A stretch of DNA of 53,475 nt from Ectocarpus siliculosus (Eukaryota > Sar > Phaeophyceae > Ectocarpales > Ectocarpaceae): assembly GCA_000310025.1 (NCBI GenBank), contig FN649746.1, forward strand, positions 3,098,486 through 3,151,960. Reading direction: 5' to 3'. Of the stretch, positions 22,325 to 47,984 are shown piece by piece. Every line of letters begins with the position of its first letter. Position 1 is the stretch's first letter. Made by a program: the position numbers and the translations under genes. Under the pieces are notes generated by a model, which saw only the letters and a list, made by a program, of their open reading frames with translations, did not search any database and was not told the DNA's origin.

Positions 22325-25300
22325 GGTGTGTGTCGCACGGACGGCTGGCTCGCCGACGCGATGCACTTCTTGAGGCGGCAATTGTTTCCCGAAGGGGTAC
22401 CTTGAATCATGGCGGCTTTCTCTACGGGAGGACCAGGCTGTTTAGTCCCGAGTTTGCTCCGAAAGGCAGCAGCTGTTTCTTAAGGGATGCAGGGAATGAA
22501 AATCAGGCGTCTTTGATGGGTAGTACGTCATGGAGCATATATCGAATCGGCTCGTTGTATCCGCATTGTTATGGTAGTACGGAAGAGGGAAATGGACTGC
22601 CACCTACACATCTCGCGTTGACGATTGATACCAAGCACCCCGGGAAGACGGGTAGGGCAGAAGAAAACTCCTGCCTTTACCTACCTCTTGTGACCCCAGC
22701 TGACACGCCAAACACATACCGGAAGGTGTAGACGGGAACCTCTACGTAGATGGGACAATATCAGCACGAGCAAGACGACCTGTTTACTCGGCTTGAGTCT
22801 AAGCGCCTGAGAGGTCTCGCAGGTACGGGGTGCGTCCGGTGGTCTCAGCCGCACGAGACAATCGTCACTCTCGACGGCTGGACGTGCACGAGACCAGGCT
22901 TGCCGAACCAGGACACGGTTCTCTCCCACCTAATACCTCTTCTGATGGAGTGTCCACAAACACGTCCTCTTATCTCTTGTTGTAGTCATTCCAAACGGCT
23001 GCCTTGCTGACGAGACTCTCGTTGCCCGCGGTTGCGGTTGCTTTCGGGTGATGTGATGCTGGTGTTGCTATAATAAGGTGGACCGTCCCTGATGGTTTCC
23101 CGAGCGAGGAGGTCATCAACGCCTACAACAATCCTCAGGTCAGGAAAGACGATAGTATATACGGCGCCATCTCGCGCACGGTCTATTTTTTTAATCAACC
23201 TTTGCCCCCCCCTACCCCCGACACTACTGAGCACACACCCCCAAGGAAGGTTAGGGGATTGACGGAGTCCGCAGCACTTGACGCGCATGGACGTGCCATT
23301 GTCAATCTAGCCCACGCGCTTCGCGCTTGGTGATATGCGAGCCAGGTCTGGTGATAACCCGGCGTGCTCCGTCCCGGCTTTGTAGGGATGCGAGGTCAAT
23401 GGTGCAACCACCACGGCACCCCCAATAAATCTAGGACTCATGGCCGTAGGCGCCGGTAAGCACCCAGCCCCTTATTATGCTGGTGATTTTCAATACCATT
23501 GGCCGCGGCGCTCGGGGCCTGCTTGAATATACCCTGCTGTCCAACTTGAGGTTTTGGAGAATATCGACGGCTTGTATTGAAAGAGATTCACATTTTTTTC
23601 GCCGTACCGGTGTCGTTGGTTCAACAGGATACAGGCTTAACCATAAACATGGGTTGGACACGTGGGATACACATCCCTCCTCCCGCCACACCGCTGCCAC
23701 GCCGTTATTTTTCAGGTGGACAGATCGGAAGAGCCTTTCAGCTGGGCGGCACCGGACGTTGACGGGTTGATGGCTCTATGCCAGAGGGTGCTAGGGTGGG
23801 ACAGGGACCAGTCTGATGGGCTGCTCATGCCCATGGTCAAGGTAAGAAACACTTGCGGTCATGCGGCAGTTCACCTTACGTTCCAAAGCGTGGAGGTTGT
23901 AGAAGCCGGTGGTATCGGCTCATCACACAGAGAGCGTCGAGCAAACGGAGGCATGGCGACGTGTATCAGCCTCCAACGTACAGCAAACGTACTTTTTGGC
24001 CATCTGATTGCGTGATACGACCCGTTCTTTTGTTGACCCGATTTCCCTCGCCAACGCAGGAGTTGGACCGGGGGAGTTTCGCGCAGTCGCGCATCGACCG
24101 CTACTTCATGGCCTACCACGACAACAAGAGGGTGGCCGCCATCAAGAGCAAGCGCCTTCGCACGGCGGTCGAGGACCTAGCGCAGGGGTCTTCCGAGGTG
24201 CTCACTTTGTACTCCTTCGAAGTATATTTTTGTTTGTCTATTTTTGTTTACTTACTGAATAATCGTATCATCAACATTGTGATGGACGGTCGATTGCCGC
24301 TATTGCTGATGATGTGTGCGCTTCTTTTTTCGAGTCTCGGCCGGGTGGAATTGGGCGGTGGTAGTGTATTTTCGCGCGATTTCGCGGGGTCCCCGCGACA
24401 AGACCGGAAGAAAAAATATGGACGGGAAGGATGTTTCCTAAGAGTTGAAGTGTTGGGTGCTGCGAAGAAGTTGCATGTCTGCTTCACGTAGAGCCTTCCT
24501 TCTTTGGTCGGTGTCTTTGGAGAGGATTGGCCAGTTTCTCGACCGCATCTATTCTGTGGGCTACTCGTGGTTGTAAGTGTGTTGGTATGTTGAGTGCGTT
24601 CGGCAAGCGTACCATGCCTGAAGTAGAGCGGGTGCCTCTACAAGTTTGACTCATGGCGCAGTTGACGTTTCCCGGCATGTGACCATGCTTCCACCCAATG
24701 GTCGTTCTATGCCGTGCGCAGCCGCTTTCGCTCTGTCTGCTTCAACCAACGTGTGCGGGCTTTCGTTCTCTTCGCTCTGCCGTTTCACGCAGGTGATCAC
24801 GGTAGACGGCTCGGCGGTAGGCAAGGTCAATGCAAAGAGCGCGAAGAAGAAAAGGAAGAGGGGCGACAAGTCGCAGAAGGAGCAAGAGAATAATGATAGT
24901 GATGATGCCCCAAGCGGGAAGACGAAAAGACGGCAGCGAGGAGCTGCCGGCACATCTCCCGAATCTACGGTCAGGGACGGCGACGACGAGGACGAGGACG
25001 AGGACGACGACGACACGCAGATTGACCAGCCGACGGTTTCGTCTCAACCGTCACCATCGCCCAGGACGGGCACAAGGGGCGCAACAGCCCGCGCGAAGCG
25101 ATCGCGGCCTCCTCCGACACCGGCGAAGAATACCGACGCTAGCGGCGGCGGCAACGGCGGTCGCCGTTCCGCGAGGAGCAACAGAAACGCCTCCGCTGGT
25201 TCTGCCGCAACGCCGGCGAACGGCGGGCAGGGGCAGAGCAAGAGAAACACCCGTGCCACGCTGAGTGGGGGCGAGGTAGGCACTCCCGCCCCCCCCCCCG

Positions 25301-27239: not shown

Positions 27240-30200
27240 CTACAAGGTCTTGTCGGGGCCGGAGAATTCGCGCACGGGCGGCCCCTCCATGACGAAAGGA
27301 GCCGAGTTGTACTTGCCACCGAAGGCCTGTATGTAGCCCAAACCTATGAAAAGCTTGTCGTTCACTTTCCGGACCTGGGAAAATGCGGAGCACGGGAAAT
27401 CAGCAAGCCACAGGTGAGAAACCTGATGTTGAGTTGATCTTCGTTCGGATTTTTTTTTTTGTTCCGTCACTTTCAATCAGCGGTCACAGCGTTTCTGCCG
27501 GATAGGAGGTAGGTTCAATCCGTGGTCACACAGAAGGGTTCCTCTCCCTGAGGCTACCTGTTATACACACCCCTCCTGCGGTGCTTGCCCTCGATTTAGT
27601 AGCGCGCTTGGAGGTTTCTTCGAGGTATTGGTCCGGACGAGATGTCCACAGAAGCCCAAGAGCAACATTGGCGGCTCGCCTTCGATTTAGCCATTTGACA
27701 AGGGCTGTACGAATTTAGCACTGCTATATGCATTGTTTGTTAAAAAAAAAAGAGCATGTACCGTGGTTTCAAGCTTTGTAAGCAGAAACACGCCGCATTC
27801 CGGGGGGAACCTCACCCGAATGAGTGGCGGTTCCGGTGGTAGATCTTCCGCCAATGAAACGAAGGCGAGACCAACTAACATCACTCGCTTCAGTTGGTGA
27901 CATGTTCCGCATACTCGTCTTGGGTAAAGCGAACGCACGACTCGATGTCAGCATCGCTCTTTGCTGACTGCCCCAGACGCCCCCCCCCCCCCCCCTTCTC
28001 TCGTGTACATACACCATGGATTTCTTCCTAGTGTCGGACGCACCAAAAAACGGAATCGACCGCTTTCGAACACCAAAAAAACAAAATCGACCACTTTCCG
28101 GCACCAAAAAACAAAATCGACCGCTCTCCAGCACCAAAAACAGATATCGACCGCTTTCGAACACCAAAAAACAAAATCGACCGCTCTCCAGCACCAAAAA
28201 ACGGATATCGACCGCTTTCGAGCACCAAACAACAAAATCGACCGCTTCCACCACCAAAAAATAGAATCGACCGCTTTCGAGCAAAAAAAAAAAAAACTGA
28301 CAACTTCAACACATCCCCTTCGACTGCTGTGGTAATACAGTACCTCGAAAGGGCAGTCTCTCTTCGATTGTATGTGAACCTTCTACAAACGACCACTTTT
28401 TTCGAGCCAATCGCTCTGTCTGCCAAGGCCTTACCTCGTCCCGCATGCCGCCGAACAGCGGCCCGTTCTTGCCCGCTCTGGCGTAGTCGAGCCCCGAAGA
28501 CACTCCCCGGTCAAACACGCTGTCGGAGAACTGGGAGAACCGGAAGGATCGCTCTCGCTGCGTGTCGCTTGGAAGGCCGATACCCTTCGCCTCGGAACCA
28601 GTGAAGAGGTTGTAACCCTCCCGGCTGCCGGTGCGGATGCCCTTCCCGAGCCACCTCCCTGGCCTGATGGCGGGGGTACAACACGCCGTGGGGGCGCGTT
28701 ATGGGTTGCCATGAAACCAATATCCCGAATGGTACGACAGTAGCAGGAGAACACCAAGCAGTACGCAAAGAGGGAAAGCTTCCGTGTTGGTGGTGGCGGT
28801 GGAATTCGCTAGGGCAAAAAACATTAATGCTAATCTATCTTGGACTATTTTCTTCGATAGAGATGGATTCGTTGGGTCATACTGATGAAAAAAAAAACAC
28901 TGCAAAAAAAACGTAGCGCTTGTCATTACCGTACAATGGGATGTGTCGTAATCTGCCCACTCGGTACGTTGCTACATTTACGCTCCCGTCTTGTACCAGG
29001 ATCTGCGCACTTCGTCGATGTTTACGAGCTCTGTATCGCTCCTACTTTCTTCTCTCTACAGGGAGAAGTTACAACCAAAGTCGATCCGACCGAAAGTTAG
29101 TTTCTCACCCTCTCTGCTCCGACCTGGTTAACTTCTAATTGAGCGACCCAGTTCGGCCTCGGGAACATGCAAGTGAACAACGCTCGCTGTCAGAATGCAA
29201 CTCTGAACATGTGGTGTCCGCCCTTGAGAGCACGAGATCACAGGTGATGCAGAGACGGCGAGACCACCAGAACAAAACAGCAAGCAGACCACACTCGCTG
29301 ACAACACCCTCCGAGGTTTTACACGGCAGCAGCGGGTGCCTGGGGCTCACCCCCATATCCGGTGCGTGATGATAGCGGTGATCGGGTGCAAGACGCCCAT
29401 GTTGAGCGTGCGGGCTCGGTACTCGCCGTCCAGGTCTCCGGTAGCAGGGCATTGGCTGGCGTAGAAGAGCTGCATGAACCCTGCCTTGCCTACGAAGGTC
29501 GAAGCACACGTTGCGGGACAAGTATGAAGGATGACAAATAACAGCTGAGGGCGGGGCTTTGTGGTAGGTGTGCGTCGAGAGTTGGGTTGGGCAGGCCGGT
29601 GGTTTCTTCACCACCAGTAAGTAGCAGCCCAGGGTTTCGTGTATCTTTTGTGTGAGGGGTGGGGCGAAGGACAGGATATTTGGCTACCTTTCTGTGTGCG
29701 AGGGATCGTGAAGGACATCAGGGTACGAGGGTATCTTTGTTCTTGGGGAGCATGCACCCCCCATAACACATGCTCCCCAACACCTGCCGAGTGCGGAACG
29801 TGGGCAGCGGACGTTTTTATTTTATTTTCTTTAAAACACGACAGTTCATCTCCCTCCATCCACAGAAAAGAGTCCGGGATAAATTAGCAACAACTCTACA
29901 GCTTTAGCGGGCACCTTACCTGTGTTTCTACGGTTCCCCGAGCAGCATGCATTGATAAAAACTTCTCCCCCCCCTTTTTTTCGAGTGTAGTCTGAAGACG
30001 TGGTGCGGGGTATTTTCGAATTTCAAAAACATGCGGGGACACATGCGTAACCCCCATCTTGGTCCTCTCCCGTGTCATGTACGAGAGGATATGCGGACGT
30101 CGGAATGCCCTCCGCGTCAAGCCTGTCACATAGTGAAAACGCTGTAGCGATTCCTGATTCTCGCGTGGAGTGCGCAACGGGGATACCAACAGCAACAAAC

Positions 30201-31163: not shown

Positions 31164-33858
31164 ATGCCCAAGATCGCCGTCTTCGACGGGAGGGAGGTAG
31201 AGTACGTCGAGGTCCACGACGAGCCGATCCACCGACGGCAGTTCAGCAACGACTATGTCTACATTTACATCGCGGGCTTCAGGCGAGTGTGACATCCGTA
31301 ACGAGCGGGGTCAAGAGGCTTGACATGCATCACGCACCAGGTCTGCTGTGCATGTCAGTATTGCTGGAGTTGCAGTTGAAGTTCTCTGTCTTATGTATTC
31401 CGAGGAGAGTGTTCTTGTTCCGCAACGCGAGTCCGGGAGGCTGTTATGTCGAAAGGTTACCCCCCCCTTGCTCGCCCGTGTTGCCTTCGCCCGACAGGCC
31501 CGGCGAAACCTCGCTTTGGCATCGCCATTCCGAGAACACCCTGTACGTGTGCGTGGGACATGGAGCGGCAGCCCTCAACCGGCCAACGGACAAGGTAAGC
31601 TTGCCCGTTGGCACCTTTATTCCCTTCGTGTCAAGCTTGCTCACCATGTGCATGCATGTTGCTGGAAAATGGATTTTCACCGACCGTGTGGTGTCAATGA
31701 TGCTTGCCTCCGAATAGGGGATGAGTTTCTGTTGTGCTGAAGTGAGGACTTGCTCTCTTGGCAGTGTTGAGCATCAGATCCACATTGTTGGCACGGATAG
31801 TATCAGCAAACATGTGCAGTTGTAGAATCTAGAAGACGTGCCTGTTGGATTGCCGCAGCAAGAGCAGTCCTACATGTCCCTCTTTGCCCGGAGTATTGCG
31901 TGAGAAGCGAGCAGTGGCATACCAACCAGAGCGTTTTAACAGCCTGTTGTGTACAGATTGACGTCCAGAATGTACGGGGCGACACACACTCCACCAAGAG
32001 AGAAGTTGTACAGTACCGCACACCGAAGGCATAGCAGTCTGCTGCTGACGGGCAGGGTCTTGCAGCTTGAAGACGCGGGATGGATGAAATCGCAAGGTTG
32101 TTTGACACGCGCGGAGGGGAGTGGCACTCAAAGGCGAGCCGTCGTCCTTCCCCTCCAAGCGTATCCTGTGTACAACGGTCATTTGGGAAGCCCTTCGGTT
32201 CTTAATGGAGACCGTTCCTCCGATCCTTGCGAACCTCCTTACTTCGTACTCCATGTCTTACTACTGGTTGACAGCTCCGCTTTTGACCTGAATCCTCAAT
32301 GCGCATCTCGTCAGTCGGTGATTCGTGTTGCCTAGTCTCTGCACATGTACTCAATATGACCACCATTGCCATGCCATTCTCACAAAACAAGTTTCCTCCG
32401 CTAGTACAGCAGTAACGCATGTCAGGGAAACCAGCTGGCTGTCAAATGCGTGTAGTGTGTCGGAGACGACGACGTACGGAACAAACTGTGAAAGCCCCTA
32501 TCCACACGAGGAAGGAATTTCACAGCCGGTTTTCTTCGCAGTGACCTATTGCAATGCCAAGCGACAGAGTCGAAAGGAATCCTCCCGTCTGCTTCTTTTT
32601 GTGGGGCTCTTCCGTTGATATTCTTACCATCGTTTTATCCAATTTGAGCAGGGGGGGTGGAAGGGAGTTGTGGTGTTGAAGGCATTCCGTTTTTAGTTGG
32701 TGTAGTTCTAAATAGGCGGAAAACCTATGTGTAGCATTCATCTACCTCATTTGTCTAGTCTATACAGAACGCCACCTGGCATCAAACTTCGACGTCGTCA
32801 GGGCGGCTCTCTCGAGGCCCATCGCCAAACGAACGTTGTCACGCTTTTTCTTTGCCGCATGCCATCATTTTTTTCGTATTCCCTCAAATACCACAACCGG
32901 CACTTTGTTTGCTAACGGACCCTATCCCGCTGGTTGCTGCCCCGACTTTTCTTGGCCTCTGCCTGAACCGTATCCATATCACAACCGTCACTTTGTTTGC
33001 CAACGGACCGTATCCCGCTGGTTGTCGCCCCGACTTTTCTTGGCCTCTGCCTGAACCCTATCCAGACCGCAACCGTCACCTTTGTTTGCCGGCGGACCCT
33101 ATCCCACTGGATGCCACCCCGACTCGTAACCTCTGACCAATCCTTTTCCATGCCACAACCGTCACTTTTGTGTGCTGCCGAACCCTTGTCCAACTGGTTA
33201 TTGCCACGCCGACTCTTGGCCTCTGCCTGAATCCTATCCCGCTGGTTGTCGCCCCGACATTTCTTGGCCTCTGCCTTAACCCTATCTGTACCACAATCGT
33301 CGCTTTTGTGTGCCAACGATCCCTTGTCCCGTTGGTCGTCGCCCCGACTCTGCCGCCCGTCCGAAGGAACCTTTCGTGCACCACGCTTCGCCGGGGGACC
33401 TCTGGTGGGCCATGAGCAAGAGCGCCCCCTACGTACACCAGGTCTGCCTCCTCCCGGAGAACACTCACAACTCGCACTTCTTCGCCATGGAAATCCTCAG
33501 ACCACCGCCCACTTGCTCGAGCCGCGCCCTCGACCACCGCTGCTACAGCCTCCGAGGGGAAGACAGCCGCCCGGGGCTCGCTCGCGTCTACGACTTCAGG
33601 CTTAAGCCCGGAGAATCTACGGGGCCCCACACGCTGGGATTCAGCGGGGTGGTGCTCTGCCTTTCCGATGGCGGAGGGAGCCTGGAGGCTGATGGCGGCG
33701 TGTTTGCGGGCGGAGAGCTGTCGAAGGTCGGGGGGTGGAAGTGGATCGACGGCCCCGTCAGCGCCAACGCGCGAAACGCGGGCGGCAGTGTCTACCAGGC
33801 TTTCGTGGTAGAGTGGCTGGGGGGAGGCCACTCGGTGGAAGGCGTGTCCAGGCTTTGA
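31164..33858 (+). CDS. RmlC-like bicupin protein
   Basis: Three exons: 31164-31282, 31498-31594 and 33367-33858; 235 aa, starting MPKIAVFDG. Only a GC donor (AG|GCGAGT at 31283) gives the phase that joins exon 1 to exon 2 as AGFRPGETSLWHRHSENTLY; the nearby GT would shift the frame. The first cupin motif is clear: GETSLWHRHSENTLYVCV has the HxH metal ligands. A second cupin follows at about residues 137-175 (RVYDFRLKPGESTGPHT), but the second ligand is changed (GPHTLGF where GPHTHPF is usual), so this half may not bind metal. Cupins of this layout bind small molecules or act as oxygenases or isomerases; the substrate cannot be read from sequence. The acceptor of exon 3 (CCGAAG) is weak and lies at the end of a minisatellite. 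Confidence 0.82.
32888..33350 (+). repeat. About 88-bp minisatellite ending at the bicupin exon 3 acceptor
   Basis: About five units start with CACAACCGTCACTTTGTTTGC and include ACGGACCCTATCCCGCTGGTT and CCCCGACTTTTCTTGGCCTC. The last units are more divergent and run to within about 20 bp of the acceptor at 33366. Confidence 0.88.
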
Positions 33859-35290: not shown

Positions 35291-38200
35291 TTACTCCGTA
35301 AGGCATGTGCCTGACAAATCCTCTGCCTCCGCCACTCGTGTTGCCTCCTGGTCGCATAGATCGAGCTCTTGAAGCGTGCAGGCTTTCGTAACATGATCAT
35401 GCCTCGACCATCGTTTAGCTCGCTGCTGTACCTCCAGACAATGCCGGAACAACTCCGTCGCTTCCTCCAGCCGCCCTTCCCCACGCACGCAAACACCAAG
35501 CCAGTGCAGTGTGTCGGCGACCTCCATATTCTCTGGACCAGGCCTGGCCTCCTCGATCTCCAAACATCGCCTCAAGATATCTTCCGCCTCTCCCAGCCGG
35601 CCTGCTTCTTGAACGCATTGGCCCAGTCGGTACAGCGTGTAGGTTACTTTCGAGCCCCTTGGGTCGGTGTTCGCTTCCGCGATCCCCAAAGAGCGCCTCA
35701 GCAACCCCTCCGCCTCCATCAGCTGCCCCGCCCGTCGAAGGCAATCACCCAACTCCAGCAGCGTGCTTGCCACCTCGAGATGCTTTGGACCCAGTTGAGC
35801 TTCGTCGATCTCCACACAGTGCCTCAATAACTCCTCCGCCTCCCGCACTCGTCCTGCGTCTCGCACGCACGCGCCTAGCCACCTTAGCGTGTTGGTCACC
35901 AACCAATGTTCTGGGCCAAATCTGGCCTCATGGATCTTGAGGCAACGCCTTAGCAAACCCTCTGCCTTGTCCATACGCCCTGCCTGTCGCATGCACCTCC
36001 CCAGATCGAACAGCACGTCGGCCACATGTTCATGCTCTGGGCCCGTGCTGGCCTCCACAATCTCCAAACGGCGCGCCAACAACTCCTGCGTCTCCTCCAG
36101 CCTCCCTTCCTCCTGGAGCCAACTGCTCAGCTGCTTCACTGTGCTGGCCGTCCGAAAATTACAAGGACCTAGCTTTGCCTCCCTCGTTGCCAAACAGCGT
36201 CTCAACAACCCCTCGGCCTCCTCGAAATGCCCTGCTTGTCGAACGCATCCACTTAGATAGTCCAACGTTCTAGCCACGGTCACATGCGTTAAGCCAAGCA
36301 AGGTCTCCCCGATCACCAGGCATCCTCTCAATACCTCCTCCGCTTCTTCAAGACGCCCAGCGTGCTTGTAGCCTAGACCGAGCTCGTGCAGTGAGCGGAT
36401 CACCGACAGAGAGTATGGGCCCACCTTGGTCACCGGCATATCGAGTAGCCTGCGGCACGTGGCAATTGCTTCCTCCCAATCTTCCTCGTGACGTTGAAAT
36501 TTTGCCACGGCCACCACGGACGTTGGGAGGAGGGGATCCGAATCTTCCATCCCGGCCAGAGCCGCCTCGTACGGACGGGTGCTTTTCCACCCGTCGCCAC
36601 CCACCTGCTCCACGCCCAACCACAGATCTCTTACATCATGCCAGCGCACAGACCGGAGAGTATCCAGAGACGAGATATTCCTTGTCCACCTCACCAATGC
36701 AGGTCGGCGCACGTCCCCACGGTCCATGAGTTTCTCCCTCGCGAAGTCCGAGTGGGCGTCGTGCAAAACATAGTGGCCCCCTCTCCAAGCCATTCGGTAA
36801 CATCCCCTTATAGAGCGCAGGACGGACCAGCGTTCCAGAATCTCCACCACCCCTGCAGCAGATGCCTCGTCCTCGGCGCTAGGCTTTCGATCGTAGAGCA
36901 ACACGGCCGCGTCCTTCACCGTAAACCCACGGCCGTCCGGCAATACTGCAAGAGATAGGTACAGCCGCTGCACGCGCTCGTCGTCTGATCCACTGGCGAG
37001 ATCCTCAAACCCAGCCTGGAGAACGGCCTTCCGCCGTGCATCGCGAGTCTCCACCACCGTACCGCTCACGCGCTCGCCCTCAATCTTGCCCATCTCTGCC
37101 CTCACCTTGCCGGCAGCATCCGACCAAGCCGTCCGGTCTGACCTGCCTCGAACGGTGCTCCAACGACCAACGAATGCCAGGTCCATCGCCACGCGCCCAC
37201 ACAGCTCGATCAGGTCAACGGCGTCATCGGGCAAGCGCGTCTCGGGAGGAAGTTCCGATGCCTTCCTCAGCACCGACTCCGCTTCTACCTCGGACATCTC
37301 GTCCACTCCGACAACCTCCCCCTCCGAGCCTACCACCAGCTCTTCGTCGCGGGTCGATAGAAGAACCCACATGCCCGTCTCCAACAGCTTCCAGACTACC
37401 TCCTTCTCCCACACGTTGTCTGCCACTACGAGGCATTTCAATCCTTTGCCCCCGTGGCCGCGCTGCATTTTCTCCTTGATGTAGGCCGCACCATCATCCG
37501 ATGTGGCTGGACGACGACCGCCGACTTCTTCACACATCATATGGGCCAGCTGCAGCATCAAGGACGGGAGACGATCCTTTGCACCATGATTTACCGTCAA
37601 CCACACGACACCATCGGAGAAAGCCTGCCGCACCTCGTTACTCCTGACGATCTCGGACGCGGCCGTGGTCTTGCCCGACCCGCTGTCGCCGACTAGCCCC
37701 ACCAAGTGCGGTCCCCCAACGGCAGTGAGCGCCTCGAACACCCTTTCCATGACATAGAGGCGTTCAACATGCCAACTCTTGCGAATCGGCGTCGCCTTGG
37801 GAATTTTGGCCAGCTTGGCCGGTGTCTTGGATAGCCGGTCAATAATGCTTTCCGTATTTGCCAGGATCATTTCTTGAGTTGCTGCTTGATTCGTGCCCAT
37901 GCGCTCCTGGAAATGCATAGTGCCGCATACACAGTTCACTTGAGACACGCACTTGTTGATTTTCTGCAGCATTAAATATCAAATACATTGATACACAAGC
38001 GCACCGGACGAGGCGGGTGAAGATAGGGCTAGACACACGATTGGTCCTTTCGATGTCACCGTTTCCACTCTCCTCAATCAACGGTACTGCGGTGGGCAAG
38101 GGAGAACCATGCTCGAGACATGATGTTTAGCTGTTGTGGAGAATCGAGTTGCACACGGTGCCGAAATCTCGTTTGGTTTCTGCCTTGAAAAACAAGATAT

Positions 38201-39045
38201 CGGTGAAATTGAACCCTGTCCCGGGGAGAAAGTTATATACGTAGAGAGGGAGGATTTATTTGTGTAATTGTTTTGCCGTTTTCTCGGGGACAAACCAAAG
38301 AATTGACAAATGTTCGGTCGAAAGTGGGGAGATTACACCACAGGGAGGCGGGGGCACTGCTTCGTGGAAGTGCGAGATGAACACGGCGCGTTCGATCCGA
38401 ACAACGAGGATATCTTCTTCATAGTGATGCTACAGAGTCGCGATTAATGGTGATAAAAATATCATCCGGGGGAGAAACATTGTAAAATCGGTGGTAACCA
38501 GGGAGATAGACATCCCGCGAGTCAACACAACCAAACCTCACCACCATCGCCGTCAAATCGCTGGTCTTCCCCTCCAGGATGGCGACACCCGCCAGGCTCA
38601 AGTCGGCCTCCAGATCTCTGATGTTTGCCTTCATGCGGGCGATCTCCTCCTTGTCGCTGGAGGCATTTAGCACCCTTGTCATCTTGCCTCGCCCACCACA
38701 CCGCTCCACCAGTTCCCCCGCTGCTTCCAGGCACTCCTCGACAGGGGTCAGATCCATCTCCGAGCAAGAGCTCTGTCTACTTTTCACGACCACGCATGCG
38801 GTCAAGTACACGCACCTCCGATACAAAGTCTGGAGCTCCTCCTGATTGTTCTGCACGTTCTCCACCGTCTCACGGATAGCCGTGAGCGTCTTCAACACGG
38901 GTCTGAGATGAGGAAGCACGGGTTCACCAAAAGGAAGGTCCTCGCCCAATTCCGCCATGAATGTGATCGAATCCACCGTGGCCGATCCCATCTTCAGGCC
39001 GAGCTTGGTCACCTCCGCCGCGGCACCACTTGATTTGGCCGCCAT
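35291..39045 (-). CDS. NLR-like receptor: helical-bundle (HeLo/MLKL-like) + NB-ARC + TPR
   Basis: Two exons on the minus strand, 39045-38542 and 37906-35291, phase 0, GT-AG; 1,039 aa. The ATG is conserved with the paralogue at 44315. Residues 1-168 form a helical domain (ETVENVQNNQEELQTLYRRC; SSDKEEIARMKANIRDLEAD) that resembles the four-helix bundles of MLKL and HeLo-like cell-death domains. The NB-ARC has a P-loop GDSGSGKTT (about 241), Walker B CLVVADNVW (about 326), LLSTRDEEL (about 350), LCGRVAMDLAFVG in GLPL position (about 403) and an LHDAHSDFA motif in MHD position (about 549). Nine 42-residue TPRs of the kinesin-light-chain type follow (about 629-1006; pattern LGxCxRxAGRxxEAExLLRRCLxI). 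In plants and fungi such proteins sense pathogens or non-self; NB-ARC-TPR proteins are proposed immune receptors in brown algae. The ligand is unknown, and the N-terminal fold is inferred by pattern only. Confidence 0.9.
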
Positions 39046-42000
39046 GGTCGCGCTATCGCATTCGCCAGTTGAGCTCTCGACTTGCACTAGCTGTTTTCTG
39101 GTACCCTGACAACGGGGAGAGGGCGAACGCTAGCGTTGAGACAACAACTAACGGGTGACTTGCCTCGGAATACAGAATACCGACAAATTGGGTGCTGTTC
39201 GCAACCAAAACAAGACGTTCGGCTGCCGAGATCAGCAGAGCGTGCTCAAGTCTAATAGACGCCGAGGGGAACGTGCACGGAAGAGCGATTCTGATTCCGA
39301 TCCCAAAACACGCCACAATCTTGCCATCGAAATGCGATACTTGCTGTGTCCGAACACTCACCACCCGTCTAGGAGAAAATTGGTCATCATTTTTCAAAAG
39401 GGAAAGTGCCTGTGTAGAAGCTGCTAATTTGCAAAGCGGGGGGAGTTTGTCGCAAACCCCGGTCGGTACAAGTTGTCGTTCATCCTTAGAAGAACCATGG
39501 TTTGAGAGCACAATGCCCGGTGCAAAGACGACCGTTCATCAGCTCAGTGGAGAAAGATTGACCGACCAACGCACCGAGAGTGATGGCCGAAAGCTAGGGC
39601 GCTTGCAACCTGGAAGCAAAACGGACCACCCTGCCCTGCTCTCATCTATGTTCAGCGGCATGGACTCCAAAAATGTTTTTAGGGTAGTACCCCACGACAG
39701 GTTCTCTCTTGTAGCGATCCAGGCGCTGATTGTGCCAAAGGTCAACACGGGGGTGCACTGCACTACTGCTGCGTACGAGCGCTGCGTTTGTCATTTTTTT
39801 ATCTACTCCAACGTAAGAAGGGCACCTACAAAGGCAACTCTCCTACAAACCCTGAAGAAGGTCGGGTGCCAGAGCGTGGAAGCCACTTTCCGGCAACGGC
39901 GCCTATTGTTCACGGGAGCATTGGCAAGGCAGCCGGACGGGTGACTCCCAAAACGGCTGATGTTTGGCGAACAGGAGGGGGGGGGGGAGAGAACCCAGAC
40001 AGGGGGAAACCGGAGCAGAACTGGCTTAGGGTAGGTCTTAACGAAGAAATCAAATCTCGATTCACATTTCGATATAAGAATACAAGAGTTGGATCTACCC
40101 AAATCCGAACTGAAATGGCCTGTGTGTCTTGACGGCAGATCTGCCAAATAGAAACGAATCTCTGCAGTCCACCGCGAACAACCCGAGAGATCCGCCGCTT
40201 GCCAACTGCCAGATTGCTGTTGTGACGTGGCCACACCACATGGGGAGCTATCGCTCCCGAGAAGCACACACCAAACGCGTACATGGCCTGTGTGCGGTAC
40301 TGACACGATGTCTAGCCCATGCATGTGAGATTTTGAATCGAGCCTCGTCCGACGGAAAGCCACCAATTCATCTGTGCATTTGAGGTTCGACAACCCACGG
40401 GAGATTGCCCCATAGACCAACACACCCCACACACGTTTTTTTCGGCGCCAGTCACGTGCAACAACGATGTACAGTCACCCTCCCTTTGGTGTGGCTTTTT
40501 GTGTTCTCTCTCTCCTCTGTGCTCGGCGGTGGATGGAGTTCGTGTGGATGGGGGTAGATGGGCACGCGCCGTGCATGCGAGTAGACCGTGGTCCCGCAAC
40601 TATGGTTGCGGTTCACCCAAATCCCGATTTGGCTTTGGGTCGTCCTGTTTTAAGTCCTAAAGAGGAGACCGGCGGAAGAACTTTTTGCCCAATCAAAACA
40701 GAGTTCTTTGGATCTTCCGGTCTTATAACCAAATCTGAATATGAATTCGAGATCTGATTCCTGCGTTAAGACCGGCCCTTACGTGCCTGAAGGACTACAC
40801 ACGGATCCACGAACGACGAGTCATGTGTACTCGGAGTCCCGAAATAAGTCTGGACGGAAGCAGCGAAGGTGGAGCGGGGTGCACCATGGCACACGGGGGT
40901 ACGGCAGGGAGCTGAGAGGTTTATGACCGCCTGGCACAAGGACAAAGAGGAGGATAGCCGACGACGAGCGCTGAAACGAAACAAGGAAACCAGCAACAGT
41001 ACATATATGGCAACGGCCAAGGGAACAAGAGGGGGGCAGCAGATGGACGAGACGGAGAGGAAAGAATGTAGACGAGAAGAGGCAGATCGCGTGAACTCCT
41101 TTTTCGCTGACCCCCCCCCTCCCCGTAATTGCACCATTGTATCAACCCCCCACGAGTGATGACATGCCGAGGCTGTTGCTGGTGGCCCTGATTGTGTTTG
41201 TTCGCTTGTGATTGTGGCGTGTGGCGTATATTTGTCTGTGTGTCTTGTCTATGTTATTATTTCCTGCCTCGTTTTTTCTTTTTTCTTCTTTTTCGTTTTC
41301 TTTTTCGTTTTCGTTTCTTCCCCGGATGGCCTTCTCTCTTTCTCTGTGCAGTACCAAGATTGTGATGAATTCCAGTTCTTTCTGCCCCACATACATAGCG
41401 TGTGTGTAGAGGGGAGCGGAGGGCCCCAGACTATCTGTCGGTCGTTGATTTAAAGTTGCTTGTGGGCCGTTCGGGTCAATGTGTTGACAAGTAGACTACA
41501 TACTATGTTTTTTAGGTACGTTAGTTAGCCTGAGACCACGGGGATCGCTCGGTCAAGTGTTTGATCAGTACCTACAGATGAAGGTACTGTGGGCAGATAA
41601 ATCGGAACCGTTTTTTATTGTGAAGACAACAATGACAACAACAACGACGACAACAGAATCCTCCGTCCTTTTCTGGTCGAGACGACAACGACCCGTCCGA
41701 GAGTGAGTGAGCATATGCAAACAATACATCTCTGTCACGTGTTCATCGGTGATTCCCGTATAGAGTGCTGTCCGGGTGACGATGCTGCCGAACCCTGCAT
41801 GCATTCTAGCTTTCGCTCCAGAGGTGTGTTAGGTAGAGCTAGCCGGTCAGGGGCGAATTTCAAGGTTTCATTGTTGTATGCATAGAAAAGGCTCTGCGGG
41901 ATGGGGCAGGTGCTGTTCCGGACGGCCGCGTACACCGGTTTTAAATAGTGCGATGATGGACACTTGTGACGCAAGGCACAAGTGCCCGGAGCGCTCGTCC

Positions 42001-44314
42001 CTGTGATGGGCACTGCATAAGTGCTCGGAGGGGGGTTCTCCGAGAAGATGTAACCGTCTCTCGGGCTAATAATGGAAATCAATGGAAAAATTCCGATTGG
42101 TTACCATTCCCCGCGCGATGATGAAACGGTTCCTCCGCATGACAGCTTGCAGCGATCTCGCCCCCCAAGCTGTCAGTGACCTTTGTGTCCGGAAACTGAA
42201 AACTATTGACCTGATATCACAACTGTGAGTGATGACCACGCCTGCATGCATGCATGCCTGACCGGATGATGGAGTATCGCTGCTTGCTCGCTTGTGTTGA
42301 TGATGGAACGCTTGGTACGTGTCTACAATCGAACTCGCGAGACTATTATAGCTATGAGCTGCGCAGGTGAGAGTGTCTTTGCCTGGAATATCGTAGATTA
42401 GCCTTGTCTCTGTAAGAGTGCATCTTTATCACAAATTACAAACAACCCCGGGAGAGCGCAGATTCACTCACCACCTGATACGTGACTCAAGGCCCAACGC
42501 GGACCAATTGAGGCATTCAGGTCGCGCGTTGTTCAGAGCCACCTCCGATGGAACAACGCACTCAATCCCCGTGGCTTGGACCGACTGCTGTGAACACGTG
42601 AACACCCTCCAGCAGTTTGTGTTTGTGATTCCGATGCATAATATAAAAGTTATGCACGCTACACCCGTGGGACGCAGCGCAGTCATTCAACCCGTTACCT
42701 TCTACCCGCCGTCTTTAGCGGTCGACCCTCTGCGCTGTTGGTGAGCTCTTTGTTTCCAACTGGTCGTGCGTGCAGTTGAACAGTGAGTGTAGATGCAGAT
42801 ACATACCTCGTTCCACCGGAACCATCAGTAGCGTACTCCTGGTATTTCTCCTCGGGGCGCAGAAGAGGCTGATGCTGCCACGCTGCTGTTGTGGCTAAAG
42901 CTGCCACGCTGTGTTGAGCGAAAAAATCGAGAAAAAAAAAAAGAGGGAATAGGTTTCGCCGCAATTTTTGAAACGGCCGTGTTGTATGCTTTTATTATTC
43001 ACACACACACACAGAAAGACTACCTGTTCGAGATATGCCCACAGTCGAACGGGATGTGTACAGTAGGGGATTGCCCCCCCGCTCCCTAATGGGGCGGGCC
43101 GTGTACGTGGGCCGTGAGTTCATCTATCTACTGTAGCAACAGGGTGCAATCCTGCGGTTGAGCTTCTTGCAGAACGAAAGTTGGGGAAGAGAACAAAACG
43201 AGGGCCAGCGTATGTGCTGGCGTGGTACTGTACCTGCGTTTCGTTGGACCGGATCGGTTGTCATCACCGTTTAAAAAAACTGCGGCGCAACTTTTGCCCC
43301 CCTTGCAGTGCCCCCTTGCCCCCTTGCGCCCTTCGTTCCGTTCTTCAACACAGCACATTGGCAACACCTCAGCCTCCTCCTGCATCTCCGCGGAGAAATA
43401 CGCCAGGAATCCCGCTGCTGGTGCTTCGGGCGAAGGGTGTGGTGTTTTGAATCTACATTCCCGATTCTGTAGAGAACACACAGGTCGCCAACGGAGAGAG
43501 CGGAGGGGTCGGATCGATCGCACGTGCGGGAGAAGCAGGCGAGCTATTATAGTTGCGATGCAGAGTTCCTATATACAGTATCTGCCATGTACATGACGGA
43601 AACATGGACGAGGGAGTAATAGGCTCTTCGACAATCGCTGCGCACTCAAATCACTTTCGTAGCCCGCACTCCTTTTCTGTAAAGGAGGGCACCGTTGGTG
43701 CCCCCCCTGGATGCCCCCCTTAGCTTGCTGCATCCAATGTGGTGGCGAAATAACCCCCAAGACGATGTATCTCCCTTCATTGACTGTAAATTTGCTCATT
43801 TGAAGGGCATTCCGGTTGTACATGTACGTAGTGCGCACCCCCAGTGCAGCCGGCGAGGCACTAACAAACAAAACCAATCAATCCGGGGGGGGGGGTGCAA
43901 TCAAGCAATTCAGGGTTTTTCTAGCAGGAGCGAATATGGTACTTGAGAACGCCATCGGAGGTGTCTGGAACGACCCGCTTTTATGGTGAACTCCCCACAT
44001 TCTTTTAGGCAAGCGAAGTTATGACCAAATACTCCGTTAGACGTGTGACTGTTCGGGAATGCAAACGCCGCTGTACGATGGCATGATAGTGGGGTCGTTG
44101 TTTTGGGATTTGAATCGGGATCGTGCTTTTGGTGCATGTTCCCGGGATGACGCGCATGTTGCTGTTCTCATTGTCGGCACCACCCAATGTGACCTTGGCA
44201 CTTCACCCGTCGTGTCAACGCTAACGTTTGCTCCCTCTCTCTCTCTCCGTTGTCAGGGTACGACAATACAGCTGTTGCAAGCTGACCTCAACTGGCGACG
44301 GCGATAGCACGACC
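39046..44314. other. Intergenic region between the head-to-head receptor genes
   Basis: The outer ends are homologous in inverted orientation: both carry CGTTGTCAGGGTAC, CTCAACTGGCGA and GCGATAGC(G/A)CGACC just before the ATG, and weaker similarity runs about 300 bp further (TTTTGGGAT, GTGCA.GTTCCC). These are the likely promoters. The middle holds frames up to 250 codons with no family pattern, an AC run near 43003 and several C- or G-runs. No confident gene was seen. Confidence 0.6.
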
Positions 44315-47300
44315 ATGGTGGCCGACTCAGGAGATGCCACTGCGGCGACGGCTAGGCTCGCCCTCAAGATGGGGTCGGCGGCGGCGGATACGATCGCGCT
44401 CATGGCAGACTTGGGCGAGGAGTTTCCCTATCTTGGACCCGTGCTGAAAACGCTCACGGCTATTCGTGAGACAGTGAAGGACGTGAAGAGCAACAAGGAG
44501 GAGCCCCAGGCTTTGCATCGGAGGTGCGTGTACTTAACGGCATGCGTGGTCGTGAAAAGTAGACAGAGCTCTTGCTCGGAGATGGACGTGACTCCGCTCG
44601 AGCAGTGCCTGGAAGCAGCGGGGGAAATTGTGAAGCGTTGTGGTGGGCGAGGCAAGATGAAGGGGGTGCTGAAGGCCTCCAGCGACAAGGAGGAGATCGC
44701 CCGAATGAAGGCAGACATCAGGGATCTGGAGGCCGACTTCAGCTCGGCGGGTGTCGCCATCCTGGAGGGGAAGACCAGCGATTTGACGGCGATGGTGGTG
44801 AGGTTTGGTTGTGTTGTCTCGCGGGGTGCCCCTGTCCCCGGTTACCACCGAGTTCACAATGTGTCTCCCCCGGGTAACGTTTTATCATCAGCAATCGCGA
44901 TGTTAGCATCGCTGGGAAGCAGGACTACTTCGAGCTCTTGGGGATCGAACACGCCTTTTTGTCGGGCATTTGCGTGAGATTCTGAGTCTCCCGCCTCCGC
45001 GTGGTGTCCCTCCCTCCCACCTACCCTGATCCGACCCACCAGTTGTTAGAACTTGATTTGTGCCCGGAAACAGGCGAACCGATTCCTCCCATCAACTTCT
45101 CCCAGAGGAAAGGTTTCGATTTCACAACAACAATTCCTCTCTTGAAGAAGAAAGAAAGTGGATTTCGGTACCTGTGCAACTCAGTTCTCCTCCACATTGT
45201 TGTTGCTCCTTAGCGCCACGCTTTGAGCATGGTTCTGTCTTGACCACCATATGTAGCACCGTGCCTTGAGGAGAGTGGAAACAGTGACATTGTGAGGTAT
45301 TCGAGTGTCAGTATTTTCATGCACCCCCCTTGAAAATGTTTTTGCTGCACTATGCATTTCCAGGAGAGCACGGGATCAAATCAAGCAGCAGCTCAAGAAA
45401 TGATCCTGGCAAATACGGAAAGCATTATTGACCGGCTATCCAAGACACCGGTCAAGCTGGCCAAAATTCCCAAGGCGACGCCGATTCGCAAGAGTTGGCA
45501 TGTTGAACGCCTCTATGTCATGGAAAGGGTGTTCGAGGCGCTCACTGCCGATGGTGGACCGCGCTTGGTGGGGCTGGTCGGCGACAGCGGGTCGGGCAAG
45601 ACCACGGCCGCGTCCGAGATCGTCAGGAGTAACGAGGTGCGGCAGGCTTTCTCCGACGGGGTCGTGTGGTTGAAGGTAAATCATGGTGCAAAGGATCGTC
45701 TCCCGTCCTTGATGCTGCAGCTGGCCCATATGATGTGTGAAGAAGTCGGCGGTCGTCGTCCAGCCACATCGGATGATGGTGCGGCCTACATCAAGGAGCA
45801 AATGCAGCGCGGTCACGGGGGCAAAGGACTCACGTGCCTCGTAGTGGCAGACAACGTGTGGGAGAAGGAGGTAGTCTGGAAGCTGTTGGAGACGGGCATG
45901 TGGGTTCTTCTGTCGACCCGCGACGAAGAGCTGGTGACAGGCTCGGAGGGGGAGGTTGTCGGAGTGGACGAGATGTCCGAGGTAGAAGCGGAGTCGGTGC
46001 TGAGGAAGGCATCGGAACTTCCTCCCGAGACGCGCTTGCCCGATCATGCCGTTGACCTGATCGAGCTGTGTGGGCGCGTGGCGATGGACCTGGCATTCGT
46101 TGGTCGTTGGAGCACCGTTCGAGGCAGGTCAGACCGGACGGCTTGGTCGGATGCTGCCGGCAAGGTGAGGACAGAGATGGGCAAGATTGAGGGTGGGTGC
46201 ATCAGCGGTACGGTGGTGGAGACTCGCGATGCACGGCGCAAAGTCATTCTCCAGGCTGGGTTTGAGGATCTCGCCATTGGATCAGACGACGCGTGCAGCG
46301 GCTGTACCCATCTCTTGCAGTATTGCCGGACGGCCGTGAGTTTACGGTGAGGGACGCGGCCGTGTTGCTCTTCGATCGAAAGCCCAGCCCTGAGGACGAG
46401 GCGTCTGCTGCAGGGGTAGTGGAGATTCTGGAACGCTGGTCCGTCCTGCGTTCTATAAAAGATTGGTCTGCGCCGGTTCCGAGAAACACCTACGTCATGC
46501 ACGACGCCCACTCGGGCTTCGCGAGGGACAATCTCATGGACCGTGGAGACGTGCGCCGGCTTGCATTGGTGCGATGGACGAGGTATATCTCGTCTCTGGA
46601 TACTCTCCGGTCGGTGTGCTGGTATGATCTAAGAGGAATATGGTTGGGCGTGGAGCAGGTGGGTGGCGACGGGTGGAAAAGCACCCGCCCGTACGAGGCG
46701 GCGCTGGCCGGGATGGAAGATTCTGACCCCCTCCTCCCGAAGTCCGTGGTGGCCGTGGCAGATTTTCAGCGTCAGAAGGAAGATTGGGACAGAGCGGCTG
46801 TCACGTGCCGCAGGCTCCGCGATATGGAGGTGACCAAGTTGGGCCCAATCTCTGAGGAGGTGGTCAGCTCGCTGCACGAGGTGGGTCTAGGCTACGAGAA
46901 CGCTGGGCGGCTTGAAGAAGCGGAGGAGGTACTTAGAGGATGCCTGGTGATCGGGGAGGCCTTGCTGGGCTCAACGCATATAACGGTGACTCAAACGCTG
47001 GAACATCTAAGTGGATGCGTTCGACAAGCAGGGCATTTCGAGGAGGCCGAGGGGTTGCTGAGGCGCTGTCTGGCGGTGAGGGAGGCCGAACTTGGACATG
47101 GTCATTCCCACACGGGCATGGCAGTGTACAAGCTGGGTAGCTTGCTTGAAGAAACGGGGAGGCTGATGGAAGCGGAGGAGTTGTTTAGGCGCCGTTTCGA
47201 GTTCCTGGAGGCCAGCGTGAGCCCCGAGGAAGATAGTGCGGACAATGCGCTTTTCGCCCTGGGTATTTGCGTGCAAAAGGGAGGTCGTTTCGAGGAGGCA

Positions 47301-47984
47301 GAGGGTTTACTACGGCGCTGTCTCAAGTATCGGGAAGCCACGCTTGGCCCAGAATCTTCAATGGTGGCGTGCGCGCTGCGTATACTAGGTATCTGCGTTC
47401 GTTCCTCTGGCCGAGTAAATGAGGCAGAGGAGATGTTGAGGCGGTGTCTGGCGATCCAAGAAGCTATGGGCCCCGGGGATGACGTGGCGTATACGCTGTA
47501 TCATCTGGGTATGTGCGTTCGACAGGCGGGGCGACAGACGGAAGCGGAGGGGTTACTGCGCCGCTCGTTGGGGATCCTGGAAGCGAAGGACGACCCAAGG
47601 GATAAGGACGACGCAAGGGATACAAGGGCGGCCTACACGCTGTACAGACTGGGCGAATGGGCTCGAGAAGCAGGCCGGCTGGAGGAGGCGGAGGAGATGT
47701 TGAGGCAGTGTCTAGAGATCCAAGAGAGCGCACTTGGCCCGACGAACATGGAGGTGGCCGACACGCTGCATTGGCTCGGTGTTTGCGTTCGTTGGAGCGG
47801 GCGGCTGCAAGAAGCAGCAGAATTGTGAAGACGGTGCCTGCAGGTGCAGCAGCGAGCTACGCATGGTTTCAACCTTGGCAATGTGACAAAATCCTGCACG
47901 CTTCAAGAGCTTGATCTATGCGTCCAGGAGGCAACACGACCGGCAGATGCAGGGGATATGTCAGATGCACACGGTACGCAGTAG
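44315..47984 (+). pseudogene. Broken paralogue of the NLR-like receptor gene
   Basis: Exon 1 is 44315-44797 (161 codons, seven fewer than the other copy) and exon 2 starts at 45364 with the same CATTTCCAG acceptor. The helical-bundle and NB-ARC parts are nearly identical to the copy at 35291-39045, including GDSGSGKTT and CLVVADNVW. At about 46290 a 4-bp deletion (GACGACGAGCGCGTG in the intact copy, GACGACGCGTG here) shifts the frame. The correct frame continues at once from 46293 with an MHDAHSGFA motif and nine TPRs. A TGA at 47826-47828 then cuts the last TPR, where the intact copy has Phe, and recognisable homology runs on to about 47984. The middle TPRs differ strongly from the intact copy. 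Two lesions make a pseudogene most likely. Sequencing error at the 4-bp site, or use as a truncated helical-bundle-NB-ARC protein ending at 46350, are alternatives. Confidence 0.85.

Follow-up and report, generated by a model that had tools for sequence, protein, structure and literature searches.

A head-to-head pair of NB-ARC-TPR genes in Ectocarpus siliculosus with a homogenised NB-ARC block and one disrupted copy

Layout of the locus

We analysed a 53,475-nucleotide stretch of the genome of the brown alga Ectocarpus siliculosus (the window; contig C21, 3098486-3151960) and used genome searches that covered 189.5 Mb in 492 contigs. Positions are those of the window unless a contig is named. 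The window contains two paralogues arranged head to head, LEFT (minus strand) and RIGHT (plus strand), whose domains resemble those of NOD-like receptors (NLRs) and whose similarity to each other is very uneven along their length. They diverge from start codons at 39045 and 44315 with ~5.3 kb between them, in agreement with a first-pass annotation made from the sequence alone that described a head-to-head NLR-like pair. Both consist of an exon 1 (168 codons in LEFT, 161 in RIGHT), an intron of ~0.6 kb and a long exon 2, with exon ends read from the sequence by eye, without RNA.

In LEFT, exon 1 (38542-39045) encodes a predicted helical N-terminal domain, and the intron (37907-38541) is 71% identical to that of RIGHT over 532 aligned sites with 137 gap columns. 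According to its reading frame, Pfam matches and a structure model, exon 2 (35291-37906) encodes an NB-ARC domain, a winged-helix part and nine TPRs, and is open to a stop codon that ends at 35291. The repeats (TPR1-TPR9, 35396-36517), delimited by per-repeat alignment and by helix pairs in the model, all lie within one 895-residue open frame. In RIGHT, exon 1 (44315-44797) is 76% identical to its counterpart, and the homology of exon 2 (45364-47984) to LEFT extends to 47984.

NB-ARC (PF00931, Pfam cut-off 23.5) scores 55.7 bits in LEFT and 57.0 bits in the first RIGHT frame, and the P-loop reads GDSGSGKTT in both. The MHD motif takes the form LHD in LEFT and MHD in RIGHT, in four relatives on C21 and in a relative on contig C476. 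TPR_12 matches LEFT at 181.1 bits and the second RIGHT frame at 169.2 bits; the nine TPRs of both genes are of the kinesin-light-chain type. The structure model of LEFT exon 2 (mean predicted local distance difference test score, pLDDT, of 59; confident in the TPR part only) shows nine helix pairs wound into a superhelix, and its closest solved structures are the TPR domains of O-GlcNAc transferase and kinesin light chain. LEFT is an intact NB-ARC-TPR gene of the type described in brown algae, and its make-up is that of an NLR, with a predicted helical domain at the N-terminus, a STAND switch and a TPR sensor.

RIGHT carries two lesions that the first-pass annotation, which placed the TPRs of both genes inside one long exon, had overlooked; that placement is correct for LEFT, which has one open frame. 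In RIGHT, open frames and alignment to LEFT show exon 2 split into frames of 338 and 520 residues by a frameshift at ~46290 (a 4-nt deletion relative to LEFT, in the zone 46286-46294), and the second frame is stopped by a TGA at 47826-47828, inside TPR9. A further difference, the Asp/Lys-rich insertion on the right that the annotation had pointed out, is indeed present after TPR7: an 18-bp tandem duplication (47586-47622, 2.1 copies, 94% matches) accounts for 18 nt facing a gap in LEFT.

Silent divergence and the homogenised block

The exon 2 products of LEFT and RIGHT have 18 differences in their first 300 residues, 27 in residues 301-460 and 126 past residue 460. The near-constancy noted in the first-pass annotation is thus confirmed, with its count of about 15 in about 300 corrected to 18. 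Identity is also uneven among the repeats, as the annotation had stated: 25/38 in TPR1, 34/42 in TPR2, 32/43 in TPR3, 19/41 in TPR4, 22/42 in TPR5, 23/40 in TPR6, 27/42 in each of TPR7 and TPR8, and 20/24 in TPR9 up to the stop. Its grouping of TPR8 with the similar repeats does not hold, as the two genes match no better there than in TPR7 or TPR1.

The same step is found at silent sites. Synonymous divergence (dS) between LEFT and RIGHT is 0.075 in the NB-ARC part (95% interval 0.044-0.114, bootstrap by segment), rising to 0.29 (0.16-0.46) in the winged-helix part and to 0.435 (0.33-0.56), about six-fold above the NB-ARC value, in the TPR part; the introns differ by 0.36 per site. The NB-ARC silent sites are not slow, because dS in this part from either copy to four paralogues on C21 is 0.94-1.16. 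Because silent change alone already shows this roughly six-fold difference, the constancy of the NB-ARC part can be explained without invoking a contrast in selection.

When third positions were scanned together with intron sites, one low-divergence block emerged, at 37923-36884 in LEFT (minus strand; ~1.04 kb) and common to RIGHT; differences amount to 0.042 per site within it and to 0.277 beyond it (log-likelihood ratio 56.1, against a maximum of 9.1 in 30 permutations). Its 5' end is sharp and coincides with the border between intron and exon 2, while its 3' side is graded. A repeat finder returned a 963-nt inverted arm at 96% identity, continued for 169 nt at 94%, beside six other arms at 73-88%; searched against the genome, the block matched a single further copy at 96%, and the next best stood at 75%. 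A model with a single breakpoint in the synonymous differences of exon 2 also exceeds chance (log-likelihood ratio 36.4, against a maximum of 9.3 in 1000 permutations), and its best breakpoint falls among the TPRs, at alignment column 659 (about TPR3), rather than at the end of the NB-ARC part. Per-repeat dS is 0.12 in TPR1, 0.23 in TPR2 and 0.46-0.81 in TPR3-9.

Trees of six genes, from which the C476 relative and a disrupted gene at 1139k on C21 were left out, group LEFT with RIGHT at 100% ultrafast bootstrap in the NB-ARC, winged-helix and TPR parts alike; the branches joining the pair total 0.04, 0.16 and 0.35, respectively. The two genes are sisters throughout exon 2, and the low NB-ARC dS relative to the TPR part, the intron and the paralogues argues that the ~1.04-kb block was homogenised by gene conversion. 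We infer that conversion, rather than another kind of exchange, was its source. Of the processes proposed in the first-pass annotation, recombination therefore finds support as conversion, located in the homogenised NB-ARC part rather than in the TPR part.

It is likely that the locus arose in successive steps. An older inverted duplication would have given rise to the two head-to-head NB-ARC-TPR genes. A later gene conversion, in either direction, would have copied a ~1-kb NB-ARC coding block between them and brought it to ~96% identity, with exon 1, the intron and the TPR parts retaining the older divergence. RIGHT would then have been broken: its frameshift falls within the homogenised block, at a place where LEFT is undamaged, and is therefore younger than the conversion; a premature stop is present in RIGHT as well.

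Several observations weigh against this history or against its simplest form. Exon 1 dS is 0.27 (Nei-Gojobori windows) with the 3' half closer, which does not fit a single event, and silent divergence is graded or stepped, with at least two steps, rather than two-level, so that one event is insufficient; several conversion events rather than one may have occurred. The dN/dS of the NB-ARC part is 0.43 with a wide interval of 0.25-0.77. Finally, amino-acid changes assigned by the majority of the C21 outgroups show no clear excess in RIGHT (50, against 42 in LEFT; p = 0.47), which fits only recent loss of RIGHT, or assembly errors.

Alternative explanations and selection on the TPRs

The last point bears on whether RIGHT still works, its lesions being assembly errors or bypassed by splicing, and whether both genes act as a pair. 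The lack of a clear excess of change would be expected of a working gene, also where the outgroups agree (20 changes in RIGHT, 10 in LEFT; p = 0.10), and the P-loop and MHD motif of RIGHT are intact. The lesions are nevertheless two and separate, and two disabling changes in RIGHT are at odds with the idea that both receptors work; we therefore consider a functional pair unlikely. RIGHT is probably a recent pseudogene, or at most encodes a TPR-less fragment.

The first-pass annotation had favoured a different reading, in which constraint preserves the NB-ARC part and the TPR part evolves under diversifying selection. We evaluated this with Nei-Gojobori (NG86) windows, bootstrap by segment, per-repeat counts, position classes and Goldman-Yang (GY) codon models in IQ-TREE, tests that average over sites and would miss selection confined to a few of them. 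The ratio of non-synonymous to synonymous divergence (dN/dS, or omega) of the TPR part between LEFT and RIGHT is 0.61 (95% interval 0.45-0.84). This exceeds the NB-ARC value of the pair, and over six genes the omega of the TPR part is likewise higher than that of the NB-ARC part (0.325 against 0.204), but the whole interval for the pair lies below 1. The annotation had named two patterns that would speak against its reading. One of these, a TPR dN/dS well below 1, is what we find; the other, uniform divergence across the two parts, is not, given the dS of 0.075 and 0.435.

Single-repeat omega ranges from 0.15 to 2.20, the highest value being that of TPR1, which is based on 20 against 3 changes and lacks significance (Fisher p = 0.27). 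Windows above 1 also occur in the pair comparison, where a stretch of 50 codons from 36547 reaches 1.18 and the final 15 codons reach 2.40, both from small counts; among the regions above 1, the significance test was applied to TPR1.

In favour of the selection reading, amino-acid differences cluster on the concave face of the repeats. Using position classes that we take from TPR structures, the seven unit pairs of TPR2-8 differ at 26 of 42 concave helix-A positions, 9 of 63 structural positions and 43 of 133 others (TPR1 and TPR9, the latter shortened in RIGHT, were excluded here and from unit comparisons). Pair omega is 0.69, 0.19 and 0.56 for these classes, and a codon model on 39 family units gave 0.78, 0.24 and 0.19; both concave values come without an interval, and the unit models are rough, their trees being nearly saturated (lengths 48-74). 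A control of 71 TPR units elsewhere in the genome, however, is equally variable on this face: its concave entropy is 2.72 (2.52-2.87, resampled to 39) against 2.82 in the family, and entropy at concave relative to other positions is higher in the control, at 1.86 (family 1.61), with single control groups from 0.94 to 2.25. The control comprises six groups of TPR loci without a listed NB-ARC match nearby, some of which may be related to the family itself, and its units were admitted at >20 bits, a filter unlike the one used for the family (>5 bits plus set residues at positions 8 and 21, with 39 kept).

Variability of the concave face is thus general in these repeats of this genome and is no proof of diversifying selection in the pair. 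Since the step is present at silent sites as well, we regard constraint combined with diversifying selection as a very improbable source of the contrast. Diversifying selection on the TPRs is not supported, though selection may act at single sites. More generally, a pattern of constant signalling and variable sensor should not be read as selection until silent sites have been checked; the constant part here is young and not specially constrained.

As an observation on the control loci themselves, the arrays L030/L033/L036 (contig C6), L018/L031 and L021/L022 (contig C26), which have no NB-ARC match nearby, combine a conserved framework with a variable concave face at ratios of 2.05-2.25.

A more elaborate proposal is that repeated conversion keeps the NB-ARC domains of neighbours alike for co-assembly despite different TPR sensors, and that RIGHT, with its N-terminus and NB-ARC, is retained as a sequence donor, a TPR-less partner or a decoy. 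We hold this to be very improbable; if true, it would mean that conversion takes the place of exon shuffling in single-exon NB-ARC-TPR genes.

At the DNA level, the LEFT and RIGHT units are each other's nearest neighbour in six of the seven pairs that can be compared, the exception being TPR6 (numbered as in the first-pass annotation), where the pair is 66% identical and another LEFT unit reaches 71%. Exchange of 126-bp units, which the annotation had put forward, is accordingly possible at this one repeat. TPR6 is also what speaks for a recent duplication after which outside units took the place of one copy's TPR part through unequal exchange or conversion, a history that the six reciprocal pairs, the 100% grouping in the TPR tree and a diverged intron and partly diverged exon 1, which make the NB-ARC block the outlier, render highly improbable.

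Exon 1 and comparison with known receptors

The Pfam model MLKL_N matches exon 1 of LEFT at 28.6 bits, just above its cut-off of 27, and that of RIGHT at 20.5 bits, below it. A genome search with LEFT exon 1 recovered nine places including LEFT and RIGHT, seven on C21, one on C476 and one on C180, and MLKL_N was detected at E up to 1 in six of the nine aligned homologues. When the genome was searched with the MLKL_N model, five places reached E 0.001, LEFT being the sole one from the nine-member family. A profile of the nine homologues found solved MLKL chains at E 1.4-1.6, ranked after unrelated helical proteins that start at E 0.02. The fold model of exon 1 is helical, but with a mean pLDDT of 42 and two sequences as its basis it is too poor for a structure search. 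We treat the MLKL_N match as a lead, not as proof. The remaining four genomic MLKL_N matches do not belong to this family and lie at C10:3221557, C29:552094, C485:50478 and C14:554023, three of them above the Pfam cut-off.

Five further genes on C21 have the same layout of exon 1 followed by NB-ARC and TPRs, at 1139k, 2907k, 2955k, 3231k and 3237k, and the copy at 1139k has an in-frame TAG and split frames. Seven NB-ARC loci (L001-L006 and L008), searched over 3.5 kb each with the family profile, yielded no TPR unit.

For brown algae, NB-ARC-TPR genes are known as candidate immune receptors from Zambounis et al. (2012) and from Teng et al. (2023), as cited in the accessible parts of PMC10197012, PMC11378527, PMC7317505 and PMC12879055, and the NB-ARC genes are stated to have expanded through tandem duplication in the accessible part of PMC11378527. 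The pair shares with these receptors an NB-ARC followed by C-terminal TPRs and an occurrence in clusters. It differs from them in that one copy is disrupted and its NB-ARC homogenised with that of its neighbour. Teng and colleagues reportedly also described an N-terminal four-helix bundle and a group whose TPRs undergo exon shuffling, and on that account the architecture of LEFT is not new. Where that group has shuffled, separate TPR exons, LEFT has its TPRs in a single exon, so that exon shuffling cannot act on them. The locus is a receptor of a known kind with a clear conversion block, and it offers a test case for whether receptor genes with all TPRs in one exon change by conversion instead of exon shuffling. 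Our literature search, which did not extend to the texts of Zambounis 2012 and Teng 2023, found no report of gene conversion in the NB-ARC part of brown-algal NB-ARC-TPR genes. Should neighbouring genes in clusters of this kind often undergo conversion, phylogenies of the family based on NB-ARC alone would misdate duplications.

Gene conversion between neighbours is familiar from plant NB-LRR receptors. Local exchange between clustered receptor genes is common to both systems, which differ in lineage and in having TPRs here and leucine-rich repeats there. Another, possible likeness is to the HeLo/HELL and MLKL N-terminal helical domains of fungal NLRs and necroptosis, given the match of LEFT exon 1 just above the MLKL_N cut-off; here, in contrast, the fold is a low-confidence model, and a Pfam scan of LEFT found no kinase-like domain. 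Fungal NLRs carry domains related to the HeLo/MLKL type, according to the accessible part of PMC10197012. Judged by its domains, LEFT would be expected to act like an NLR: by analogy, the concave face of its TPRs would sense a ligand and the NB-ARC would serve as nucleotide switch and oligomerisation module; the N-terminal helical domain, by analogy with NLRs and HeLo/MLKL proteins (PMC10197012, same part), could be the executor, perhaps at the membrane.

An Rfam scan of the window gave no match above threshold, and Pfam searches of nine other long frames in it returned only two sub-threshold matches. ARAGORN predicted a candidate tRNA-Ser (GCT) of 100 nt at 25083-25182 on the minus strand, and tandem arrays with units of ~92, 30 and 88 bp occupy 449-800, 28040-28296 and 32888-33239, respectively.

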